A stretch of 64,000 bases of DNA from Oscillospiraceae bacterium (GTDB lineage Bacteria; Bacillota; Clostridia; Oscillospirales; Oscillospiraceae). Position 1 is the first letter of the stretch. Each line of letters begins with the position of its first letter. The notes below the pieces were generated by a model that saw nothing but the letters and a program-made list of their open reading frames with translations, searched no databases and was not told where the DNA came from. The DNA is taken from assembly GCA_029257695.1 (NCBI GenBank), contig JARIAU010000062.1:35041-99040 (forward strand). Direction: 5' to 3'. The position numbers and the translations under genes were made by a program. Positions 36,439 to 50,386 of this stretch are shown in pieces.

Positions 36439-37572
36439 TTATCCTTCGGTGGCTCCGTGGGCTTCCTCCCGAATGTGCGCTTGCAGCAGGGCATTGTAGC
36501 ATTCTCCATCGATGGGCAGCGTCACCGGTTCCTTCCGCCATGATGATAAATAAGCGCCATTCGCCAACATCACCGACGCCAATCCATCCTCCCCGGATTC
36601 CAGCAACGGTTCTCCCTGCAAAATATGGGCAGCAAAATTGTCAAATACCCGCCGATAACTGTCGCTGCAATCCTCACTGACCGGGATCTGACGGCATTGA
36701 TGCGGTGGCACACCATAAATTTCCGTATTCATGCGGGCAAAGGTTTCGGTATCTACCAAATTTTCATCGAGGGTAACCATTGTATGATTTTCCACACACA
36801 ACTTCCCTTTGCTGCCCCAGATTTCCAAACGATTGACTCCCGGATGTTCTCCGCTGGATGCAATGTAGGTTCCATGCAGACCATTGGCATACCGCATCTG
36901 CATATCCACCGCATCATCCACCTGAAACGGATTATATCGTCCGTAAGAAATGTCGGCGCTGATCTGCTCCGGCAGCCCAAACAGAGACTGCCAAATATCA
37001 AAACAATGCTGACTTTGATTGATCAGCAGTCCACCTCGTTCACCAGCCCAAGTACTCCGCCATGCGGAGGAGCGATGGTAAGCCGGAGAGCGATACCAGC
37101 TGTTGCAAACCCAGAGCGCACGCTGCAGCCGCCCCAGTACTCCGCTGTCCAAAATCTCCTTCGCCTTGCGGTAGGCCGGATACATCCGTACATTAAAAAT
37201 CGTTCCACAGACCACCTGATTTTGCTTGACGCAGTCCAGCAGCCGCTGTACTTCCTGCACAGTGGTCCCAATAGGCTTATCAATCAGAATGTGCTTCCCT
37301 GCCTGTGCGGCACGCATTCCCAGCTCCACATGACTGGTATGCGGCGTCACAATAATCAACGCATCATACGCATCCCTGTGGGCAAACAATTCCTCTGCAT
37401 CGGCATACACCGCAACATTCGGATATTCCTTATTTAGCAGCTCGATTCCGGCAGCATTACGGCAGCAGACCCCGGTCAGCACCATGCGATCCACTTCCCC
37501 ATCCCGAAGCATCTGGGCATATTGTTTCCCCATGCCGCCAAATCCAATCAGAGCCACTCTCAGTTTTTCCAT
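36439..37572 (-). CDS. Gfo/Idh/MocA family NAD(P)-dependent oxidoreductase
   Basis: LRVALIGFGGMGKQYAQML; HILIDKPIGTT (EKP-like); AGERGGLLINQSQHCFDIWQSLFG. Confidence 0.93.
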   Translation of the reverse strand: MEKLRVALIGFGGMGKQYAQMLRDGEVDRMVLTGVCCRNAAGIELLNKEYPNVAVYADAEELFAHRDAYDALIIVTPHTSHVELGMRAAQAGKHILIDKPIGTTVQEVQRLLDCVKQNQVVCGTIFNVRMYPAYRKAKEILDSGVLGRLQRALWVCNSWYRSPAYHRSSAWRSTWAGERGGLLINQSQHCFDIWQSLFGLPEQISADISYGRYNPFQVDDAVDMQMRYANGLHGTYIASSGEHPGVNRLEIWGSKGKLCVENHTMVTLDENLVDTETFARMNTEIYGVPPHQCRQIPVSEDCSDSYRRVFDNFAAHILQGEPLLESGEDGLASVMLANGAYLSSWRKEPVTLPIDGECYNALLQAHIREEAHGATEG

Positions 37573-37594
37573 GTTGCACGATCCTTTCTTCCTC

Positions 37595-38410
37595 TTAGCC
37601 CGAATGTTTCTGACTCCACAAATTCAGCTGTTTCAAGTGTTCATCCTCAAAGGCATTGATCCGCTCATGTCCATATTTCGGGTAAACGAGATGTCGTTTT
37701 GGGCCGTTGGCACGGTGAACACAGGCATACTGTCCCCACGGGGTCGCAACTTCGTCCATGAGGGCCGTCCCCAGCAGCAAAGGACCCCGCAAATGCTCTG
37801 CAAACACTTCCACATCCAGATAAGACCACCCCTCCGGAAGTTCGGTCGGCATAGGATGGAGTGCTGTACAATGCACCGTCTGCGGCAGTAAAGCCGCCAC
37901 AACGATTGCAAGTCCTCCGCCAAATCCTTCTCCCCAAACGGCCAAACGATCCGAATCGGTTTCCGGCAGACACAGGGCGGCTTTTGCCGCAGCCAACGCA
38001 TCCAGCTCACATCGTTCCAGTGTTTCTTCTTCCATCTGTTCTGGCAGAAGCAAAGGGTCCATTCGGTTTTCCAGTGCAACAACCGCATAGCCAATTCCGA
38101 CAAATCGAGTCATATGGTGCCATCCCCGCATCCCTCGCCCCAAATCATGATACATCAGCAAGGTAGGATACGGGCCGTCTCCCTGCGCCGGCCGTAGATA
38201 GCGAGCCGTGATCTCCTCTCCCTGCGCCGTGGTGATGTGCAGCCGTTCATAAAGTGCACCGGAATTGGCCGATGGCACAGGCTCTCTTCTCACCTGAACA
38301 CGACCCATTTGCTCCACTGATGTCTTCCAGTGGTCCAGAAAATCATCCGGGCACACTGTTTTTCCCGGATAGCACTCCAACTGGTGCCGTTTTTCCGAAA
38401 TGGTCACCAC
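37595..38410 (-). CDS. CE7/acetylxylan-esterase-like alpha/beta-hydrolase lacking the nucleophile Ser
   Basis: Fold motifs LLMYHDLGRGMRGWH, LMDEVATP, YPKYGHE present; expected GxSQGG reads GEGFGG. Confidence 0.8.
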   Translation of the reverse strand: MVTISEKRHQLECYPGKTVCPDDFLDHWKTSVEQMGRVQVRREPVPSANSGALYERLHITTAQGEEITARYLRPAQGDGPYPTLLMYHDLGRGMRGWHHMTRFVGIGYAVVALENRMDPLLLPEQMEEETLERCELDALAAAKAALCLPETDSDRLAVWGEGFGGGLAIVVAALLPQTVHCTALHPMPTELPEGWSYLDVEVFAEHLRGPLLLGTALMDEVATPWGQYACVHRANGPKRHLVYPKYGHERINAFEDEHLKQLNLWSQKHSG

Positions 38411-39372
38411 TGCACCTCCTCTGCTCCAAAGAAATTCAACAGCAAATCATCAAAATCCGCAATTTCCTCGTGTCCCATTCCGGGATACAGGTACCGCTTT
38501 TTCTGACAACGCAGTGCATTATACACCGCACACTGCGTCACCGGCAGCACCCACGCATCCTCCATTCCCGTTCCAAACAACACCGGACACTGAATGCGGT
38601 GGGCAAAATTTTTGGAGTCAATGTAGCCCAATTTCAAAAACCATTGGTCTTCCTTCGCTCCATCCGGATCGAACCACCGAGCATAATACCGCAACCCCTC
38701 GTAGGGAATCAAATCCGCATTCTGTTCCCAAATCATGCGAAAATCACTGAGAAAGGGATACAAAATCGCTGCCCGCCGAATCAACTCCGGGTTCAGCGCA
38801 CAGCAGGCCAGTCCAAGGGCTCCTCCCTGCGATGCACCATTGACAAATACCCTGCTGCAATCAATTCCCTCCAACTGCTGCACAATACGGCACAGAATCC
38901 GGATGTTCTGATGCAAACGCACATAATACATCTCCTGCGCCGGACCGTCCAATCCGGCGACCAAATGTCCGCTGACCGTCGTGCCCTGATAGCCGCCCAG
39001 GTCCTGTCCCAGTCCCCCCTGTCCGGGACAGTCCAGTGCCAACACCGCACACCCCATCCCCAAAAAGGACGCTTGCTCCAGCCAACTGCGGCTGGCCCCC
39101 GGATAGCCGTGGAATTGCAGCACCAGCGGCACCGGAGCGCTCCCCTTTGGCTTCAGATATTTGGCGCACAACTTGGCTCCGCCCATCCCCTGATACCACA
39201 AATATCGAAAGGTGCCGGTCGGACTATCCGGAATCTCGGATGGGCAAATCTCATAAACCAAGGGCTGGGCATCTGCTTCTGCAATGCGCTGATCCCAGAA
39301 TACATCAAAATCCTCCGGCATGGGGGTCAGTCCTTGATATTGACTGTACTTCTCCAGTTCTTGCTCCATCAT
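38404..39372 (-). CDS. CE7 family acetylxylan esterase/cephalosporin-C deacetylase-like protein
   Basis: VFVNGASQGGALGLACCALNPELIRRA; DAWVLPVTQCAVYNAL; YPGMGHEEI. Confidence 0.88.
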   Translation of the reverse strand: MMEQELEKYSQYQGLTPMPEDFDVFWDQRIAEADAQPLVYEICPSEIPDSPTGTFRYLWYQGMGGAKLCAKYLKPKGSAPVPLVLQFHGYPGASRSWLEQASFLGMGCAVLALDCPGQGGLGQDLGGYQGTTVSGHLVAGLDGPAQEMYYVRLHQNIRILCRIVQQLEGIDCSRVFVNGASQGGALGLACCALNPELIRRAAILYPFLSDFRMIWEQNADLIPYEGLRYYARWFDPDGAKEDQWFLKLGYIDSKNFAHRIQCPVLFGTGMEDAWVLPVTQCAVYNALRCQKKRYLYPGMGHEEIADFDDLLLNFFGAEEVQW

Positions 39373-39380
39373 CTCGTTTT

Positions 39381-40991
39381 CTATCTCCTCTCCTGCTCCA
39401 GAAAACACCCACGCACTTGTCCGATTTCTCCCTGCAGCACAATCGGCCGATTCATATCCGCGTGCTCTTCCGGATAATCCGACCGATAGTGCGAGCCTCG
39501 ACTCTCCTTCCGCAGCAAACTTGCCCGCAAAATAGCCTCCGCTGTGTGCAGTCGGCAGCGGAAACGCATGGTATCCGCAATGCAGCGAGGATGTTCCGTG
39601 CGGTACATCGGCATATTGGTTTCCATCTCCAAGACCGTCTGCAGCGCCTTGTTTAATCCCTCTTCCTCACGGACCACCATGGCATACTGTGACATGAGTC
39701 CTTGCAGCTGTGTCTGCATCTCCCCACACCCAGCGGCAGCAACACCATCCACCGTACAGTACCCCACGGGATTCGGTGCAGATGCAGCCTCCCGAGCGGC
39801 TGTCCGTCCGGCAATACCACCAAACACCAGCCCGTTGGCTGTGGACAGTCCGCCCAAACGGTCGGCTCCGTGCATTCCGCCGGTGACCTCCCCCGCAGCA
39901 TACAGGCCGGGAACGCCTGTGCAAGCATTGGAATCGATCCGAACTCCACCATTTGCCGCATGGGCAAACAGTCCGATCTGTGCCCGATCCGCCATGGTCA
40001 ATCCTTTGGCCCGCTCCAACCAGTCAAAATAGGTTTGAACAAATTCCGGCGGATGCTTCTGCATTTCCGTACTATACGACACAGTCACAGGTTTCCCCTG
40101 CCGCCACGCATCATGCAAAGCAAGATCCACCGCTTTTGAATCTAAACGAGAGGTAAATGGGCCGTGCCCAGACCGTAAATCCCAGATTCGTCCCGCATCA
40201 TCCGGAAGCAGTTTCGTTCCATCTTCCATGCAAAATTCTGCAAACCGGAAGGTTTTTTCGTTGAACACCGTCTTATAGGCCGGATTCAAATAGCCGGGCA
40301 TTACCTGCATAAACTCCATATTTACCAGTGTACACCCCATGTCCAGAGCCATTGCCTGTCCAATGCCTTCCACATCTTCCGTGCAGAGGTGATGCTGAAA
40401 CAGACTTCCATAGCCGCCGGTTGCCAGAACCAACGCTTTGCATCCAAGATACCGGAGCTGTCCCTCCCAAAATACGACGGCGCCGCACACACGCCCTTGA
40501 TGACGGACCAGTGTGACTGCGTCACAATCGGTCAGCACCGTGATCCCCAAGCGCTGGATTTTCTGTCCGAGAACCGTTCTCACACGATCAAACTCAATTC
40601 CATTCCAGTTGCGATGTTTGTGATCAAAGCAGGGGATAAATTCCCTCTGCGTACTGTGGTCTGCCTGCCGCAGCTTGACCCCTTCGGCCTGCAATTCATC
40701 CAGTGCCGGTGGAATTCCCGAAACCAGTGTCCGTACCAGTTGCGGATCGGTCATCTGACAGCCAACGCGGGCAATGGTCTCTGCTAAATCCACCTCATCC
40801 TTCGAATCGGCCGGACCGATCAATCCCAATCCCCATGTACCCGGATAAAAACTGGATCCAGAGAAAAGCGGGCCTTTGGCTGCCAGAATCACAGATGAAC
40901 CCTCTTCGGCCGCATGAATTGCGGCCGAAATGCCAGCCAGGCCCGCTCCTAGAACCAGGACATCCACTGTATGTTCAAGTTCTATGTTCAT
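39381..40991 (-). CDS. FAD-dependent oxidoreductase of the fumarate reductase/L-aspartate oxidase flavoprotein family
   Basis: VDVLVLGAGLAGISAAIHAAEEGSSVILAAKG; CTGVPGLYAAGEVTGGMHGADRLGGLSTANGLVFGGIAG. Confidence 0.9.
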   Translation of the reverse strand: MNIELEHTVDVLVLGAGLAGISAAIHAAEEGSSVILAAKGPLFSGSSFYPGTWGLGLIGPADSKDEVDLAETIARVGCQMTDPQLVRTLVSGIPPALDELQAEGVKLRQADHSTQREFIPCFDHKHRNWNGIEFDRVRTVLGQKIQRLGITVLTDCDAVTLVRHQGRVCGAVVFWEGQLRYLGCKALVLATGGYGSLFQHHLCTEDVEGIGQAMALDMGCTLVNMEFMQVMPGYLNPAYKTVFNEKTFRFAEFCMEDGTKLLPDDAGRIWDLRSGHGPFTSRLDSKAVDLALHDAWRQGKPVTVSYSTEMQKHPPEFVQTYFDWLERAKGLTMADRAQIGLFAHAANGGVRIDSNACTGVPGLYAAGEVTGGMHGADRLGGLSTANGLVFGGIAGRTAAREAASAPNPVGYCTVDGVAAAGCGEMQTQLQGLMSQYAMVVREEEGLNKALQTVLEMETNMPMYRTEHPRCIADTMRFRCRLHTAEAILRASLLRKESRGSHYRSDYPEEHADMNRPIVLQGEIGQVRGCFLEQERR

Positions 40992-40997
40992 ATAAAC

Positions 40998-42029
40998 TTA
41001 CGCTTCTTCCTTTTTTACCTCAGCCATTTCATCATACAAATGGCAGGCGCAGAAGTGCTCCTCTCCATCGATGACATACCGTTTCAATTCCGGCTTTACT
41101 TTTTTACAAATCTCCATACATTTCTTACAACGAGGATGGAAATGGCATCCCTCCGGCGGATGCACCGGATTCGGCACATCGCCCTCCAACACAATCCGAC
41201 TGTGCTTTTCATCCGGGTCCAAAATCGGGATGGCGGACAGCAGCGCCTCTGTGTACGGATGCATCGTATGAGAAAATACCTGTTCTGTTGTGCTCAATTC
41301 TACGATTCGGCCCAAATACATAACTGCAATTCGATCCGAAATATACTCCACCACGGAAAGATTATGCGTAATGAAGATATAAGTCAGGTCCCGCTCTTCC
41401 TTAAGCTTCATTAACAGATTCAGGACCTGTGCCTGAATGGAAACATCCAGTGCCGACACCGCTTCATCACAGATGACCATCTCCGGGTTGACCATCAGTG
41501 CACGGGCAATTCCGATTCGCTGCCGCTGACCGCCGGAAAACTCATGTGGATAGCGATCCATATATTCCCGGCGCATATTGACTGCCTCCAGAATATCACC
41601 AATCAGCTGACGCTGCTCCTGCTTGTCTTTTATGCCAAAATGACGCAGCGGATCGGCCAAGGACTGGAAAATTGTAAACACCGGATTGAGGGACGAATAC
41701 GGGTCCTGAAATACAATCTGAATCCGCTTATGGAGCAGCTGCTCCCCTGCTTTATCCAGCGTGCGCAGGTCCTTTTTCCCTTCCTCTCCAAAGTCATACT
41801 CCATCGTGCCATCGGTGGCGTGCACCAGTTGGATAATCGACTTGCCAAGTGTGGTTTTTCCGCAGCCAGACTCGCCAACCAGGCCCAAAGTTTCTCCCCG
41901 ATAAATGTCCAGGTCAATATCATTGACCGCCTGCACATGGTCGGTCACTTTATTGAAAAATCCACTCCTGACAGGAAAGAATGTCTTGACCCCTCGCAGC
42001 TTCAGCAATACCTCTTTTTCCTTGCTCAT
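40998..42029 (-). CDS. PepT-type ABC transporter ATP-binding protein (OppF-like)
   Basis: GESGCGKTTLGKSIIQLV; FSGGQRQRIGIARALMVNPEMVICDEAVSALDVSIQAQ; oligo_HPY C-terminus. Confidence 0.94.
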   Translation of the reverse strand: MSKEKEVLLKLRGVKTFFPVRSGFFNKVTDHVQAVNDIDLDIYRGETLGLVGESGCGKTTLGKSIIQLVHATDGTMEYDFGEEGKKDLRTLDKAGEQLLHKRIQIVFQDPYSSLNPVFTIFQSLADPLRHFGIKDKQEQRQLIGDILEAVNMRREYMDRYPHEFSGGQRQRIGIARALMVNPEMVICDEAVSALDVSIQAQVLNLLMKLKEERDLTYIFITHNLSVVEYISDRIAVMYLGRIVELSTTEQVFSHTMHPYTEALLSAIPILDPDEKHSRIVLEGDVPNPVHPPEGCHFHPRCKKCMEICKKVKPELKRYVIDGEEHFCACHLYDEMAEVKKEEA

Positions 42030-43054
42030 ACCTTTGCCTCCTCCCCTCTGGGCCCTGCATAGACCTGCTCCCAATTCCAGCAGCGGACAGTATGCCCATC
42101 CTTGGCTTGGGTTTCCGGCGGCATCTCCTGCAGGCATTTTTCACAGCAGTGTTCGCATCTGGGTGCAAACTGACACCCTTTTGGCCGGTTATAGGGATCT
42201 GGAGTGGAGCCGACGATCGGCTCCAGCTTCTGCTTCTTTCCCTTATGGAGCACAGGAATCGACTTCAACAGTGCTGCTGTATAGGGATGGGCGGGATACT
42301 TGAGCACATCATGTGCCGAGCCCTGCTCCACAATGCTGCCCATATACATGACCGCTACATCATCTGCCAACTCACTGACCACGCCCATATCATGGGTAAT
42401 CAGCATTACAGCCGTGTCATGTTCCCGCTTCAACTGCTCCATCAACTCAAAAATCTGAGCCTGAATGGTTACATCCAATGCCGTGGTAGGTTCGTCTGCA
42501 ATCAGCACCTTCGGTTCACAGCTCATGGCCATGGCAATCATGGCACGCTGACGCATACCACCGGAAAACTCAAACGGATACTGGTCAATGCGCTTTTCCG
42601 GTGTGGAAATTCCCATTTGCGTAATCAGTTCCAAGGTACGGGCTCGGCGGGCCTTTTTATCCAGCTTGGTGTGATAACGCAAATCTTCATCAATTTGGTA
42701 TCCAATGGTATACACCGGATTCAATGCAGTCATAGGGTCTTGGAAGATCATCGCCAAATCATGCCCTCGAAGCGCTCTCATTTCCTTTCCATTTCGCTTG
42801 AGCTGATCGATGCGAATATCACCATGCTCACTATGGTAGGTAATCGAACCCTGCTCAATGCGAGAAAGCTTTGGCAGAAGCTGCATCACGCAAGAGGCCG
42901 TTACACTTTTCCCACAGCCGGATTCGCCCACGATGCACAGCGTGCGTCCCTTGTACAACCGGAATGAAATGCCGTTCAGCACCTTATTGCAACGTTTGTC
43001 GGAGTAGAAATAGGTGTGGAGATCGTTTACTGTAATAATTGCTTGCTGTTCCAT
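42026..43054 (-). CDS. PepT-type ABC transporter ATP-binding protein (OppD-like)
   Basis: [57 protein letters not shown]. Confidence 0.94.
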   Translation of the reverse strand: MEQQAIITVNDLHTYFYSDKRCNKVLNGISFRLYKGRTLCIVGESGCGKSVTASCVMQLLPKLSRIEQGSITYHSEHGDIRIDQLKRNGKEMRALRGHDLAMIFQDPMTALNPVYTIGYQIDEDLRYHTKLDKKARRARTLELITQMGISTPEKRIDQYPFEFSGGMRQRAMIAMAMSCEPKVLIADEPTTALDVTIQAQIFELMEQLKREHDTAVMLITHDMGVVSELADDVAVMYMGSIVEQGSAHDVLKYPAHPYTAALLKSIPVLHKGKKQKLEPIVGSTPDPYNRPKGCQFAPRCEHCCEKCLQEMPPETQAKDGHTVRCWNWEQVYAGPRGEEAKV

Positions 43055-43069
43055 ACTCTTTCTCCCTTC

Positions 43070-44008
43070 TTAACCCTGCTGTGTCGGGTCCGTGGAATCA
43101 CGCAGCCCATCGCCGATGCAGTTAATGCTGATGACGAAGAGAGAGACTACAATGCCCACCGGCAGCCACATCCACCAGTAGTTCTGCATGACATAGAGAT
43201 CCTGCGAGGCGTTAAGGATATTGCCCCAAGTTGCAATTTCCGGAGGCACACCCAAGCCCAAAAAGCTCATGGCTGCTTCGTCCAGAATGAACATAGCGGT
43301 AGACAGGGTGATATTTACCACCACAGGGCCAATGGCGTTTGGCAGCATATGCTTATAGCAGATAACAAAATCAGACAGTCCAAACGCCTGCATAGATTGA
43401 ACATACTCTTCCTCACGCAGAGACAGCATTTTTGCGCGGGCCTGACGATAAACTGCTCCCCAACCGGTCAGAATAAAGATGAAAATCAAATTCCAGAGGC
43501 CACGGCCAAAAATGGTTCCCAGCATCATCACCAGAATGAGCTGCGGAAAAGACATAAAAATCTCGGAGAAACGCAGGACGAACTTGTCAAACAGCCCACC
43601 TTTATAGCCGCCATAGCACCCAAGCAGCACCCCAATGACCGCCGCACCCAGCGCAGAGCCCAATCCAATCAGAATGGAAAGGCGGCCGCCGTACAGGGTT
43701 CGTGTGAAAATGTCACGCCCCAGCTTGTCCGTGCCAAACAGATGCTGCCAAGAAGGAGCCTGGGTCATGCTGCGCAAATCCGTAGCACCGGGATCATAGG
43801 GTGAAATCAACGGTGCAAGGATACAGGCGAGGACAATCACGCAAAAAATCACCAATCCAACAATGGCCAGCCGATTTTCCAGCAATTTTCGCAGTGAGCG
43901 ATTCATTTTCCGCTGTCCCAGTTTTCCTGCCTCTTCTGCAGCACGGATTTTGTCAAATTTTTTATCCAATCGGGTGCGCTTTTTTGTATTTGTCATTTCA
44001 GCACTCAT
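43070..44008 (-). CDS. PepT-type ABC transporter permease (OppC-like)
   Basis: HLFGTDKLGRDIFTRTLYGGRLSILIGLGSAL. Confidence 0.94.
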   Translation of the reverse strand: MSAEMTNTKKRTRLDKKFDKIRAAEEAGKLGQRKMNRSLRKLLENRLAIVGLVIFCVIVLACILAPLISPYDPGATDLRSMTQAPSWQHLFGTDKLGRDIFTRTLYGGRLSILIGLGSALGAAVIGVLLGCYGGYKGGLFDKFVLRFSEIFMSFPQLILVMMLGTIFGRGLWNLIFIFILTGWGAVYRQARAKMLSLREEEYVQSMQAFGLSDFVICYKHMLPNAIGPVVVNITLSTAMFILDEAAMSFLGLGVPPEIATWGNILNASQDLYVMQNYWWMWLPVGIVVSLFVISINCIGDGLRDSTDPTQQG

Positions 44009-44020
44009 GTGATTACCCCC

Positions 44021-44989
44021 TTACTCCAACTCAACACGAGGATCGATCACTGCGGTCAGCACATCCACCAAGAAACTGGCGCAAAGGACGGCTAGGACCG
44101 AAAACAGTGCAATCATCATAACCAGAGGATAATTTTGGCCTGTGACTGCCGTCTTAAAGGCATTACCAATGCCGGGCCACTGGAAGATCGTTTCAATCAC
44201 CACAGAGCCGCCAATCAGTGTGGGCAAACGGAATCCCACCAAAACGACCACCGGTGTCATAGCAACACGGAATCCGTGCACCAGATTCACACGCCACTCC
44301 GGAAGGCCCTTTGCACGAGCCGTCTTGATATAATCTTTATTCATCGTGTCCAGCATACTGGATCTTGCATAGCGCATGACACCGGCAGTCAAGGAAATAC
44401 CAAGCACACTGGCCGGCAAAATCAGGTATTTGAAGTGCGCCCAAATTCCTGTTTCACCCGGTGCCATGCGTCCTCCAATGGGCAGCAGCTTCCAATTCAA
44501 CGCAAACAGCAGGATCATCAGCATACCAAAGAAAAATTGAGGAATCGAAACGCCGATCATACCGAAGACAGTCAGCGCATTGTCGCCGATGGAGCCCTTC
44601 TTCAATGCACTCAAAACACCCAGCACGCTGCCCAACACCGTGGAAATAATCAGCGCTGCAAGGGACAGTTCCAGGGTAGCCGGAAACAGTTCTTTCAAAA
44701 TATCTTTGATTGCAACACCACTGGTCATGGAATAGCCAAAATTGCCATGCAGCAACTGTCCAAGCCAGCGGACATACCGCACCAAAAACGGATCGTTGAT
44801 ACCCAGCGAATCACGCAGTGCCTCCAGCTGGGCCGGATCCATATTGGCCATTTGATCCGGAGGGATCATATGGGATACGGCATCGCCCGGGGTCAATTCC
44901 AATCCACTGTAAATCAAAAATGTGATGACCAAAACCATGGGAATCATCATCAGCAATTTTTTCAGAATATACTGTAATTTGTTTCGCAT
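44021..44989 (-). CDS. PepT-type ABC transporter permease (OppB-like)
   Basis: YILKKLLMMIPMVLVITFLIYSGLELTPGDAVSHM; KTARAKGLPEWRVNLVHGFRVAMTPVV. Confidence 0.94.
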   Translation of the reverse strand: MRNKLQYILKKLLMMIPMVLVITFLIYSGLELTPGDAVSHMIPPDQMANMDPAQLEALRDSLGINDPFLVRYVRWLGQLLHGNFGYSMTSGVAIKDILKELFPATLELSLAALIISTVLGSVLGVLSALKKGSIGDNALTVFGMIGVSIPQFFFGMLMILLFALNWKLLPIGGRMAPGETGIWAHFKYLILPASVLGISLTAGVMRYARSSMLDTMNKDYIKTARAKGLPEWRVNLVHGFRVAMTPVVVLVGFRLPTLIGGSVVIETIFQWPGIGNAFKTAVTGQNYPLVMMIALFSVLAVLCASFLVDVLTAVIDPRVELE

Positions 44990-45010
44990 AGACTGCCTCC
45001 CTGTTAAAAA

Positions 45011-45037
45011 AGGGGGTGGCTGCGGACGCCACCCCCT
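45011..45037 (-). terminator. Intercistronic terminator-like hairpin between SBP gene and permease gene
   Basis: Minus strand AGGGGGTGGC-N7-GCCACCCCCT followed by TTTTT. Confidence 0.75.
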
Positions 45038-45123
45038 ACAAACGATCGTTTCATTCCGTGATTCGGTTCGTTTCAACCGAAACCACTTGTGTCACAGGCT
45101 TCGTTGTTTGATCATAATCTTGC

Positions 45124-46803
45124 TTACTGAATATCCCAGTGCTGAATATCCCAATCGTAGCAGAACTGCGGATTTCCGTCCTTGATCTGACCCACACGAT
45201 CACTGGTGATCATAAAAATGGGCTGATAGTACAGAGCCATAGTGAACAAGGTATCATTCTCGTACTTGATGAGGTCCTTAAAGGCTTCATTCTGCTCGTT
45301 GACATCCGTGGAGGCACTGGTGGCCTCGATCAGCTTGTTCAGCTCGGGATCTTCCGGCGTATGAGAGTTTGCAGGGTTACCGGTATGGTAACGATCATAG
45401 TACTCATGGAGGGACAACGCTGCATTCGCTGCATAGCAAATATCCCAGTCCACTGCACGAGGACCCTTGGTCTGATCCGCAGGTGCACTCCAGAGAATGG
45501 TGCCCAAATCGCCCTCAACCAGTTCAAACTCCATCTTGATGCCCACATCAGCCAGATAGGCCTGAACCGCAGTCATCAGATCAACGGTTGCCTGATCGGT
45601 ATAATAGAACACGGCCTTCAAAACTGTGTTGGAATCCCAGTTTGCTTCAGCCAGCAATTCCTTGGCCTTTTCAGGATTATACTTATAGTCGTTCAAATCG
45701 CCGCTCTTCAGTGCTGCATCGGGAGCCAGGCTGTTTGCGGGGACTGCTGCACCCTGGAACAGGGTCTCGCAGATGGTATCCATATCAATGGCATAAGCCA
45801 TAGCCTGACGCACACGGACATCGGCCAGAGGAGACGGAGTTCCGTCCTTGCGGTCAAACTTGTTCAAATAGAACAGGCGGGTGTAGCGGACATCGACAGG
45901 GGTCACCGTAATGCCGTTAGTGTTTTCGATGGCCTGCACATCGGTCACTGCCTTGGTATAGCCATAGTCCAAATTGCCGGACTTCACACGAGTTGCCAGG
46001 TTTGCGTCGGAATCGCCGGGGCTGGGCAGCAGCTGGATCTTGAAATCAGCCACGCCGTTATAGTACTGGTCAAAGGGCTCCAGAATGGTGTAGTTCTTCA
46101 TGTTGACTTCGCCAACCTTGAAGGGACCGGAGCCGATGGGATGCTGGAAGAAGGGGGCCTGCTGGACCATCATGGGATCCACTCCCTCAAATTCGCTCTT
46201 GGGGACGGGAGCAAACTGAGTGAAGGCAAGCAGTGCATCCGGTGCAATCTGGGAGAACTGGATGGTGATGTCCTGCCCATCAATGGTGATACCGGAGAAT
46301 GTATCGTTGAATTTTCCGTCCGTAGTGCTGCCTTCAATGGCAGTAAAGGTGCTCACGAACACGGCATTGCAGACAGGCGTCTTTGCCACAAATTCGATGC
46401 TCCACTTGATGTCTTCGGGCGTCACGGGCTGACCGTTGTGCCAGAATGCATCGTCACGGAGGTGGAATACCAGCGTCTTGCCGTCTTCGCTGTAATCGTA
46501 GGTGGCCAGAGCGTCGGGATGATCGGGAATCGGATTCAGATTCTTATCCGCAACCAAGAGGTGGGAATAGACCGTCTTGTTATAGGTATATGTACCGGGG
46601 TTCAACCAAGGGGTTTCAAAGAACTCTTCCGGACCACCGTTGCTGTAAATCATTTTGGCTCCGGTGGGATCCGCCTTGTTCCCGCTGGAGGTGCCGCCGG
46701 AACCGCTTCCGGACTGCTGTCCTCCGCCGCCGCAGGCAGCCAAACTGAACAGCATCGCTGCACCAAGCAGGGTACACAGCACTCGCTTCATCATTTTCTT
46801 CAT
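45124..46803 (-). CDS. ABC transporter substrate-binding lipoprotein, SBP family 5
   Basis: Lipobox AAMLFSLAACGGG; LVFHLRDDAFWHNGQPVTPEDIKWSIEFV. Confidence 0.94.
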   Translation of the reverse strand: MKKMMKRVLCTLLGAAMLFSLAACGGGGQQSGSGSGGTSSGNKADPTGAKMIYSNGGPEEFFETPWLNPGTYTYNKTVYSHLLVADKNLNPIPDHPDALATYDYSEDGKTLVFHLRDDAFWHNGQPVTPEDIKWSIEFVAKTPVCNAVFVSTFTAIEGSTTDGKFNDTFSGITIDGQDITIQFSQIAPDALLAFTQFAPVPKSEFEGVDPMMVQQAPFFQHPIGSGPFKVGEVNMKNYTILEPFDQYYNGVADFKIQLLPSPGDSDANLATRVKSGNLDYGYTKAVTDVQAIENTNGITVTPVDVRYTRLFYLNKFDRKDGTPSPLADVRVRQAMAYAIDMDTICETLFQGAAVPANSLAPDAALKSGDLNDYKYNPEKAKELLAEANWDSNTVLKAVFYYTDQATVDLMTAVQAYLADVGIKMEFELVEGDLGTILWSAPADQTKGPRAVDWDICYAANAALSLHEYYDRYHTGNPANSHTPEDPELNKLIEATSASTDVNEQNEAFKDLIKYENDTLFTMALYYQPIFMITSDRVGQIKDGNPQFCYDWDIQHWDIQ

Positions 46804-46910: not shown

Positions 46911-46940
46911 CATTGTACTACAATGTATTTTTCTTTTCAA
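46911..46940 (-). promoter_or_regulatory. Promoter of the SBP operon with overlapping FCD-GntR-like operator CATTGTACTACAATG
   Basis: Minus strand TTGAAA-17 bp-TACAAT; 7-1-7 palindrome 46911-46925 matches TNGTNNNACNA. Confidence 0.75.
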
Positions 46941-47120
46941 TTATGAACAAATACCAACTATTGCACTCTATTTTTGTATGATTGCATAATATCTTCTCTG
47001 TGTCAAATATATTTCTTGTCTTTTTTTACAAGTGAAGTTAAAATAGTACCACGGTTTTCTGATTTTCCTGTCTCTTTCGTCTGCGCATCGAAATCACCAA
47101 TGAAAGCGAGGCATTCTGCG

Positions 47121-47576
47121 ATGATATATGACACTTTGAACCACTTGGATCGATACCAGGGTCTTTCCCCTGCCATTGACACTGCGATTCGTTTTTTGAA
47201 GTCCGCAGATTTGAACCATCTGCCCTCCGGCCGTGTTGAAATCAGCGGTGACACGGTTTATGCTAATCACTTTAGCTACGAAACCGCCCCTTTCTCGTCT
47301 TCTTCGATTTTTGAGGCTCATCAACAATATCTGGACCTTCATATTGTCCTTTCCGGTCAGGAAACCGTCGGTCTCACGCCCACAGATCAGCTGCTCAACC
47401 CAGACATTCAAACCGACCAGGATGCCGTGTTATATACCGGCGTGCCTCATGAATCCCTGTCGCTCTCCCCGGGTCAATTTCTTCTGCTGTACCCGGGAGA
47501 AGGCCATCTTCCTAAGCTGATCCACGAAACTCCTTGTCATGTGGATAAACTCGTTGTGAAAATCGCTTTATTTTGA
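47121..47576 (+). CDS. YhcH/YjgK/YiaL family protein (NanQ-like sialic acid anomerase family)
   Basis: MIYDTLNHLDRYQGLSPAIDTAIRFLKSADL...FEAHQQYLDLHIVLSGQETVGL...LYPGEGHLPKLIHETPCHVDKLVVKI. Confidence 0.92.
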   Translation: MIYDTLNHLDRYQGLSPAIDTAIRFLKSADLNHLPSGRVEISGDTVYANHFSYETAPFSSSSIFEAHQQYLDLHIVLSGQETVGLTPTDQLLNPDIQTDQDAVLYTGVPHESLSLSPGQFLLLYPGEGHLPKLIHETPCHVDKLVVKIALF

Positions 47577-47580
47577 AGAC

Positions 47581-47629
47581 AAAAAGAAGCCCCGATGTTC
47601 GTTTCGTCCGAACACAGGGGCTTCTTTTT
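47581..47629. terminator. Terminator hairpin AAAAAGAAGCCCC...GGGGCTTCTTTTT
   Basis: Long arms between convergent genes. Confidence 0.85.
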
Positions 47630-47644
47630 GCTTCCTTGCTCCTT

Positions 47645-48403
47645 TTATACCAGTGGTTCTTCATCCGGTTCCGTTTTATAGGTCCGTTTGAAATGCTCTT
47701 CCATTGCGGCTTGATAGGCATCCCAATCCTGCGCTTTGAGTGCATCCACAATCCGTCTGTGCCGCTCCACCGTGGATTTCAAATGCGCCAAACGCACGGT
47801 TTGGGTGTAAAACCGATCACAGCGCCAAATCGCATCGACAATGGAAATCAGCACCCGATTGCCCGTTCTGCCATTCAGCACAAGGTGAAATTCCGCGTCT
47901 ACACTGGAAAACTCCTGTCCTCGCCGCAGATCACCGCTTTCGGTAGAGCGCCGATGAAAAATCGCATCCATTTCATCCACCAATGCAGAGAGGCGTTCAA
48001 TATCCTCCGGCTCCACCGTAGCAAACGATTCCTCCATAAACCCCAATTCCAGCACACGCCGGATAGCCATGGTCTGATCCACCATGGCTTCACTGTCATA
48101 AGTCAAATTATAAAACAAGGTCTGGAACAAAAAATCCGGATTGAATTCCTGAATGATGATTCCAACGCCGGGCTTGGAGGCAACCACACCGGTGATTTCC
48201 AGCGCCTTAATGGCCTCCCGCAGTACATTCCGGCTGATTCCAAACGCAGCACACATTTCCATCTCTGTCGGGAGTTTGTCCCCGGGACAAAGCTTTTTTT
48301 CCACAATATACGCTCGAATTTCATCGTATACCTGCATATACAGCTTCTTGCTTTTCGAATTTTTCAACTCTCTTATCGGTTGATTTGTCGTCAGTATTTC
48401 CAT
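47645..48403 (-). CDS. GntR-family regulator, FadR/FCD subfamily
   Basis: HTH YDEIRAYIVEKKLCPGDKLPTEMEMCAAFGISRNVLREAIKALEITGVVASKPGVGIIIQ; FCD domain AEFHLVLNGRTGNRVLI. Confidence 0.93.
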   Translation of the reverse strand: MEILTTNQPIRELKNSKSKKLYMQVYDEIRAYIVEKKLCPGDKLPTEMEMCAAFGISRNVLREAIKALEITGVVASKPGVGIIIQEFNPDFLFQTLFYNLTYDSEAMVDQTMAIRRVLELGFMEESFATVEPEDIERLSALVDEMDAIFHRRSTESGDLRRGQEFSSVDAEFHLVLNGRTGNRVLISIVDAIWRCDRFYTQTVRLAHLKSTVERHRRIVDALKAQDWDAYQAAMEEHFKRTYKTEPDEEPLV

Positions 48404-48582
48404 GTTATGCTCCCGTTTTGATTCCAATCAGTTCTTTTATATCATTTCATCTTACTGGATTCTTTTCACTTCGTCAAGCCCGCTCTTCCGTCCGTCCGCT
48501 AACTGTGCGCCTTCCCATGGACGCTTCCGTTTGCCAAATCAACAAAAGAACCTTCCGTTTCTTGTCTAATTTTCCGATTGAT

Positions 48583-48622
48583 ATTTGTCCTACAAACATT
48601 CATACTGATTTGTAGGACAAAT
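48583..48622. promoter_or_regulatory. Paired FCD-GntR-like operators ATTTGTCCTACAAA and TTTGTAGGACAAAT upstream of the NanA-like gene
   Basis: 14-bp perfect inverted repeat, each half matching TTGT-N3-ACAA. Confidence 0.75.
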
Positions 48623-48723: not shown

Positions 48724-49656
48724 ATGGCTAAGTTTGACATGAAGCAGATCACCGGTGTCATCGCCGCAATGATCACCCCCTTTGATGAACAAGAACAGGT
48801 GGATGTTGTACGCACACAGGCGCTCGTGGATTTCCTGCTGGAGCGTGGCATCGACGGATTATATTTAACCGGCAGCACCGGTGAAGGCTTTCTCATGAAT
48901 GCCGAGGAACGAAAACAAGTGGTGGAAACCGTGATGGAGCGGGTCGCCGGACGGGTCCCGGTCATCGTCCATGTCGGTGACATCGGCACCCGTAAATCAA
49001 TAGAGCTGGCTCGCCACGCCTATGCAGTCGGTGCGGATGCCATCTCCTCCGTTCCTCCTTTTTATTGGCACTTCTCTGAACACGACATTTACCGGTACTA
49101 CAAGGATCTTTCCGAAGCCACTCCTTTGCCGCTCGTAATCTACAATGTGCCGTTAGCTGGTTTAATGGGGACAGATCTACTGCGGCAGCTGGCCCAGCTT
49201 CCCCATGTGCAAGGGCTCAAATTTACCGGAAAAGATCACGACCAGATGAGTCTGCTAAAGGCGGAACTGGGTCCGGATTTTATGGTCTATTCCGGATGTG
49301 ATGAAATGGCCTTCTCCGGCCTTTCGGTCGGTGCGGACGGCATCATCGGTTCCTTTTATAATGTCATGCCGGAAACCTTCCAACACATTTATCGGTATGC
49401 ACAGGACGGAAATATGGCTGCTGCAACCCGTTTGCAGCATGTGGCAACAGAAATCATCTTGGAAGCCATTCAATACGAAATGATACCTCTGCTGCATGAT
49501 ATGATCTCCTGGCAAGGCACCGATGTGGGTTATTCTCGCAGGCCCTTCTCTCCGTGTACCCCAGAGCAGACGGCCGCCTTCCAAGCCAAATGCCGTGACA
49601 TCCGAGCCAAATACAAAGTGCAGCCTGACGAAGTTCGGTTTCTTTTCTGTATTTGA
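48724..49656 (+). CDS. DHDPS/NAL superfamily aldolase, N-acetylneuraminate lyase type
   Basis: GIDGLYLTGSTGEGF, VIYNVPLAG (Tyr), VQGLKFTG (Schiff-base Lys), VYSGCDEMAFSGLSVGADGIIGSFYNVMP, RRPFSP. Confidence 0.9.
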   Translation: MAKFDMKQITGVIAAMITPFDEQEQVDVVRTQALVDFLLERGIDGLYLTGSTGEGFLMNAEERKQVVETVMERVAGRVPVIVHVGDIGTRKSIELARHAYAVGADAISSVPPFYWHFSEHDIYRYYKDLSEATPLPLVIYNVPLAGLMGTDLLRQLAQLPHVQGLKFTGKDHDQMSLLKAELGPDFMVYSGCDEMAFSGLSVGADGIIGSFYNVMPETFQHIYRYAQDGNMAAATRLQHVATEIILEAIQYEMIPLLHDMISWQGTDVGYSRRPFSPCTPEQTAAFQAKCRDIRAKYKVQPDEVRFLFCI

Positions 49657-49702: not shown

Positions 49703-50386
49703 ATGAAACGCAGCGAAATCAATGCAGCTCTTCGCGAAATGGAGGCAATGCTTCAACAATATCACTTCGCTCTGCCTCCATTTTGTCACTTCACTCCAGA
49801 GGAGTGGGCGGAAAAAGGCCATGAATACGACGAGATTCGGGATAACATGCTTGGCTGGGACATTACAGACTACGGCATGGGCCAGTTTGACAAACTAGGG
49901 TTTTCCCTCATCACGCTTCGCAACGGCAATTTGCACAACGACCGATACACCAAAACCTATGCAGAAAAGCTGCTGTATTTGAAAGAAGGGCAGTACGCTC
50001 CCATGCACTTCCATTGGTCGAAAATGGAAGACATTATCAACCGTGGCGGCGGTACCGTTTTGATTCGGGTTTACAACTCCACGCCGGACGAAGCACTGGA
50101 TAAGAACGGCGAAGTTCATGTCCATGTGGATGGATGCGAACGAATTGTTCCCGCCGGCACGCAGGTTCGCTTGATGCCGGGCGAAAGCATCACCATCCAT
50201 CCGTATCTCTATCACGATTTTGAGGTGGAAACTGGCAGCGGTCCGGTTCTCCTCGGCGAGGTCAGCCAGTGCAATGATGATCAGACCGACAACCGGTTCT
50301 ACTCCGCTGTGGGTCGCTTTCCCGCCATTGAGGAGGACGAAGCGCCCTATCGGCTTCTCTGCACCGAATATCCTCCTGCAACATGA
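49703..50386 (+). CDS. D-lyxose/D-mannose isomerase family (cupin)
   Basis: MKRSEINAALREMEAML...YDEIRDNMLGWDITDYGMGQFDK; YAPMHFHWSKMEDIINRGGG; HPYLYHDFEVE. Confidence 0.9.
   Translation: MKRSEINAALREMEAMLQQYHFALPPFCHFTPEEWAEKGHEYDEIRDNMLGWDITDYGMGQFDKLGFSLITLRNGNLHNDRYTKTYAEKLLYLKEGQYAPMHFHWSKMEDIINRGGGTVLIRVYNSTPDEALDKNGEVHVHVDGCERIVPAGTQVRLMPGESITIHPYLYHDFEVETGSGPVLLGEVSQCNDDQTDNRFYSAVGRFPAIEEDEAPYRLLCTEYPPAT

Follow-up and report, generated by a model that had tools for sequence, protein, structure and literature searches.

Genes and predicted regulatory features of the locus

The window, meaning the whole stretch of DNA that we analyzed, is 64,000 nt long and comes from an Oscillospiraceae bacterium (GCA_029257695.1, contig JARIAU010000062.1, positions 35,041 to 99,040 of the forward strand). 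It contains a gene for a 252-amino-acid regulator, with a transporter operon on one side and a short operon headed by an aldolase gene on the other (Table 1). The regulator is a GntR protein of the FCD/FadR subfamily: a PF00392 helix-turn-helix domain is followed by a PF07729 effector domain, both over their cut-offs, and the genome, which is 97% complete, contains no second FCD match. Two arginines of the recognition-helix region, R58 and R62, are shared by all of five homologues. The best NCBIfam match is NanR (NF003011), at 93.9 bits against a cut-off of 260. The regulator has no close solved structure; its best sequence matches are weak, and E. coli NanR (6on4) is among them.

Since its same-strand genes lie close together or overlap, we infer that the transporter operon runs from 36439 to 46803. 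It begins with a solute-binding protein (SBP) and includes genes of the DppB, DppC, DppD, and DppF types. The Gfo/Idh dehydrogenase at its far end has glucuronide-3-dehydrogenase as its best solved match (8tdi, E 2.5e-61), a similarity that may mean that the substrate is a glycoside or a uronide.

Table 1. Coordinates of genes, predicted promoters, and candidate operators in the window
Feature	Coordinates	Strand	Remarks
Gfo/Idh dehydrogenase	36439-37572	-	End of presumed transporter operon
AXE1-type esterase	37595-38410	-	Presumed transporter operon
AXE1-type esterase	38404-39408	-	Presumed transporter operon
FAD oxidoreductase	39381-40991	-	Presumed transporter operon
DppB, DppC, DppD, DppF-type permeases and ATPases	40998-44989	-	Transporter operon
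SBP_bac_5 solute-binding lipoprotein	45124-46803	-	First gene of transporter operon; PF00496, 2e-59
Operator 1 (site 1), candidate	46911-46925		CATTGTACTACAATG; single central base between 7-bp arms; overlies predicted -10 of transporter operon promoter
Transporter operon promoter (predicted)	46912-46940	-	TTGAAA-17-TACAAT; consensus match 10/12
YhcH/YjgK/YiaL protein	47121-47576	+	Divergent from transporter operon; under NanQ anomerase cut-off
FCD/FadR-subfamily GntR regulator	47645-48403	-	252 aa; PF00392 + PF07729
Aldolase operon promoter (predicted)	48578-48606	+	TTGATA-17-CATACT; consensus match 9/12
Operator 2 (site 2), candidate	48583-48596		ATTTGTCCTACAAA; within spacer of predicted aldolase promoter
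Operator 3 (site 3), candidate	48609-48622		TTTGTAGGACAAAT; begins 2 bp downstream of predicted -10
DHDPS-superfamily aldolase	48724-49656	+	Closest to N-acetylneuraminate lyases
D-lyxose/D-mannose isomerase-like cupin	49703-50386	+	Second gene of aldolase operon

A rare palindrome that recurs beside the regulator

A first-pass annotation of this DNA had pointed out three palindromes around the regulator gene, and we find its sequences and coordinates for them to be exact. The 14-bp inverted repeat that it described before the aldolase gene is equally real: sites 2 and 3 are exact reverse complements. Each site is near-palindromic in itself, and the orientation of sites 2 and 3 depends solely on a 3-bp center, CCT versus AGG. 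The CCT center is absent from the other loci described below. The outer positions of site 1 are A/T.

All three sites had also been matched to the FCD consensus TNGTNNNACNA, and this match near the regulator gene holds, both here and in five other loci. The loose pattern is not enriched in the window, where 6 copies are found and 9.85 are expected, so it proves nothing on its own; taken alone, it would suit a reading in which the palindromes are chance matches. The tighter pattern TTGT-N3-ACAA is rare. It occurs 18 times in the whole genome of 1,847,716 bp, compared with 32 times for the reversed control pattern, and 3 of these 18 sites fall within 1.7 kb around the GntR gene, where the genome rate predicts 0.014; the corresponding Poisson P of ~4e-7 is a post hoc value. 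The perfect form TTTGTNNNACAAA is found four times in the genome, and two of these are the aldolase-side pair. This rarity, together with conservation beside the regulator in six genomes, strongly disfavors chance, which we regard as extremely unlikely. When the surroundings of 12 of the 15 remaining genomic TTGT-N3-ACAA sites were read, no clear further member of the regulon emerged.

Phylogenetic footprinting had been proposed as a check on these sites. We looked for homologues of the regulator in ~390 genomes of the order, ~390 of the class, and ~400 of the family of locus L017, which belongs to the metagenome-assembled genome Lachnospiraceae S29_Bin8 (identical with genome G768). Distribution of the regulator is sparse: besides that of the window, there was one homologue in the order sample, one in the class sample, and two in the L017-family sample. 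A genome of the same genus (G001, 79% complete) has no homologue, and close-range footprinting within the genus was therefore not possible. The five other loci are the pairs L017/L032, L019/L030, and L020/L031, along with L029 and L058. The last of these, from a congener of G1139, was found after the pattern scan described below and added later; L029 and L058 are congeneric, have nearly the same promoter, and are not fully independent.

In all five of these genomes, whose regulators are 38 to 57% identical to that of the window, the intergenic region adjoining the regulator gene contains TTGT-N3-ACAA, mostly as TTTGTAnTACAAA. At four of the five loci the sequence is TTGTA[CG]TACAA, which also forms the core of site 1 in the window. 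The individual sites are TTTGTACTACAAA at L029 (regulator identity, ~44%), TTTGTATGACAAA at L019/L030 (~39%), TTGTAGTACAA at L020/L031 (~40%), and TTTGTAGTACAAA at L058. L017/L032 (56%) has TTTGTACTACAAA and, directly ahead of the regulator gene, a second copy with one mismatch, TATGTACTACAAA. We did not rely on a multiple DNA alignment of the promoter stretches, in which one site was misplaced. We scanned the five loci available at that point (the window among them) with 2,816 palindromic patterns, that is, all 4-bp palindromic words with gaps of 0 to 10. TTGT-N3-ACAA was the sole pattern common to all five; none of 200 shuffled sets reached five loci, and the maximum of four was seen once. 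A matrix was then built from the non-window sites only and applied to the 64-kb window. Sites 2 and 3 tied for first place (19.8 bits), and site 1 ranked third at 13.62 bits, only narrowly above an unrelated fourth match at 13.57. The proposed operators thus passed the footprinting check, both by conservation of TTGT-N3-ACAA in five other genomes and by their ranking with an independent matrix. A perfect TTTGTACTACAAA also lies away from the GntR cluster, between HxlR-type regulator and radical-SAM genes (L021:1501-1513; G768:C107:3133-3145).

We assign the sites to this regulator on the strength of their recurrence, since five other genomes carry the same site next to the same regulator; they are very probably real operators of the neighboring FCD-GntR protein. 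They could instead be operators of another regulator, a non-FCD GntR or a member of a different family, with the neighboring protein controlling something else. The genome-wide count in which the regulator stands alone covered FCD proteins, and the general FCD consensus is loose and common to many regulators (PMC2230225). But the motif follows the FCD-GntR gene through five other genomes even where the neighboring transporter differs, being a sugar ABC system in L017 and of the Dpp type in L029 and the window; in L031 and L032, moreover, a site stands immediately before the regulator gene. We therefore think that control by a different regulator is unlikely.

The Dpp-type transporter set beside the regulator in L029 is 60 to 64% identical to that of the window. 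The SBPs of the two congeneric species (L029:6042-7769 and L058:3869-5605) are circularly permuted relative to the SBP_bac_5 protein of the window: the two halves have changed places, the C-terminal one coming first, and a single open frame that starts with a signal peptide encodes both. Treponema is known to have a permuted sugar-binding protein of another family (PMC4990184).

Promoter geometry and a candidate repressor circuit

The promoter TTGAAA-17-TACAAT that the first-pass annotation had placed before the SBP operon is present on the minus strand (46940-46912), and the palindrome of site 1 covers its -10. In the other genomes, the operator starts 2 to 12 bp after a sigma-70-like -10 box (six operator-promoter pairs, the promoters matching 9 to 12 of 12 positions); the example from L030 reads TTGACA-17-TATAAT. 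Window site 3, starting 2 bp past CATACT, is within this range. These promoter calls are consensus matches, and within these regions a promoter of the same quality lies equally near to 3 to 9% of positions. The predicted promoter of the regulator gene itself in the window has no adjacent operator.

Such positions are the geometry expected of a repressor that blocks polymerase, and we favor repression because the sites overlap or directly follow the -10. We consider it highly likely, judging from the sequence, that the local FCD-GntR protein represses both the SBP5-type ABC transporter operon and the aldolase/lyxose-isomerase operon through the three sites. A dimer of the regulator would bind the palindrome TTTGTAnTACAAA, which lies on the -10 or directly downstream of it. 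Once bound, it would block RNA polymerase at both promoters, acting through site 1 on the transporter operon and through sites 2 and 3 on the aldolase-isomerase operon. The inducer that releases the regulator would be an intermediate of the sugar acid that is taken up, probably a nonulosonic acid or a related 2-keto-3-deoxy acid.

Two other readings concern the paired sites. The first-pass annotation had tied one FCD-GntR protein to both operons and had further suggested cooperative binding or looping from the paired, oppositely oriented sites. The shared operators stand, having passed footprinting; the second suggestion is not supported. Sites 2 and 3 are nearly symmetric, their centers are merely 25 bp (~2.4 helical turns) apart, and the orthologous promoters have a single site, with no double site at one promoter in any of the five other loci. 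A related idea is that the regulator activates at some promoters, or forms a loop across the 1.7 kb between the promoters of the two operons. There are indeed two operator groups at a distance, and FadR-type regulators can activate: for ptsG, activation by Corynebacterium glutamicum GntR1/2 has been reported (PMC2230225). Against this, the sites occupy a repressing position at the -10, and the spacing and the single sites elsewhere that argue against cooperativity apply here too, so that activation or long-range looping seems very improbable. An RNA hairpin, serving as a leader structure or attenuator, could also account for the inverted repeat before the aldolase gene. Positions 48583 to 48622 would fold strongly as RNA, more stably than shuffled sequences (z = -3.0), if transcribed from an upstream start. 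But the start predicted from TTGATA-17-CATACT would lie inside the repeat, and the full hairpin would therefore not be transcribed from that promoter. There is no T-run after the repeat, the other loci have single sites and no hairpin, and each arm is itself an operator sequence. We give a mainly hairpin role very little credence, and repression through an operator pair remains our preferred reading.

Substrate of the operons and relation to known systems

The aldolase had been called NanA-like. The family resemblance is sound, its nearest solved relatives being N-acetylneuraminate lyases, but the protein falls under the curated equivalog cut-offs for that enzyme (259.8 versus 281 and 224.8 versus 382 bits). 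We found no PF04131 (NanE) match in the window genome (G000); NanE is present in G719, G768, and G1139. With the aldolase under the cut-offs and no NanE, a sialic acid is therefore only one candidate for the effector. At L029, the aldolase beside the regulator is 54% identical to that of the window, and a NanE gene lies near the regulator there and at L058, the latter gene being judged by its resemblance to the former. A single GlcNAc 2-epimerase-family gene elsewhere in the window genome makes a Neu5Ac route via GlcNAc conceivable.

The isomerase gene directly after the aldolase encodes the sole lyxose/mannose isomerase found in the genome. Instead of Neu5Ac, the regulon might serve a different nonulosonate, for example KDN. 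Mannose, not ManNAc, would then be the aldolase product, and the isomerase would convert it to fructose, replacing NanK-NanE under the same GntR operators. We offer this as a speculative and rather doubtful proposal. A KDN-specific aldolase has been reported to depend on Asp50 (PMC10017367); around this region the window aldolase reads GSTGEGF, whose Glu might be the equivalent position. A literature search returned no papers on KDN with mannose isomerase or on sialic acid with D-lyxose isomerase.

Overall, the locus seems to be a local repressor circuit for sugar-acid use of an ordinary sort, with new details but of a known kind. For an uncharacterized lineage of FCD regulators in Clostridia, it supplies an operator that can be tested, TTTGTAnTACAAA, and a defined local regulon. 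It also links a peptide-type ABC transporter to sugar-acid breakdown rather than peptide uptake. If the substrate is indeed KDN-like, the locus would represent a catabolic route in which an isomerase replaces NanE.

The locus resembles sialic-acid loci of the SatABCD type. SatA resembles peptide-type SBPs (PMC10017367), as the window SBP does, and NanA-like and YhcH-like genes are nearby. However, the window SBP has only a weak match to the SatA entry 5z99 (E 4e-13) and a better one to DppA, and unlike SatABCD loci, the window genome has a lyxose isomerase instead of NanE. E. coli NanR is also an FCD-GntR protein over sialic-acid aldolase and transporter genes and also binds downstream of the polymerase site, but it recognizes (GGTATA)3 direct repeats as three cooperative dimers (PMC8012715). 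Such repeats are absent between 46701 and 48800 of the window, where the plus strand has TATACC only three times, each copy isolated, and lacks GGTATA. The C. glutamicum regulators GntR1 and GntR2 likewise combine a helix-turn-helix with an FCD domain, bind sites agreeing with TNGTNNNACNA, and act at several promoters to control how sugar acids are taken up and catabolized (PMC2230225). The window regulator differs from them in the genes it is proposed to control and in its tighter site, TTTGTAnTACAAA.
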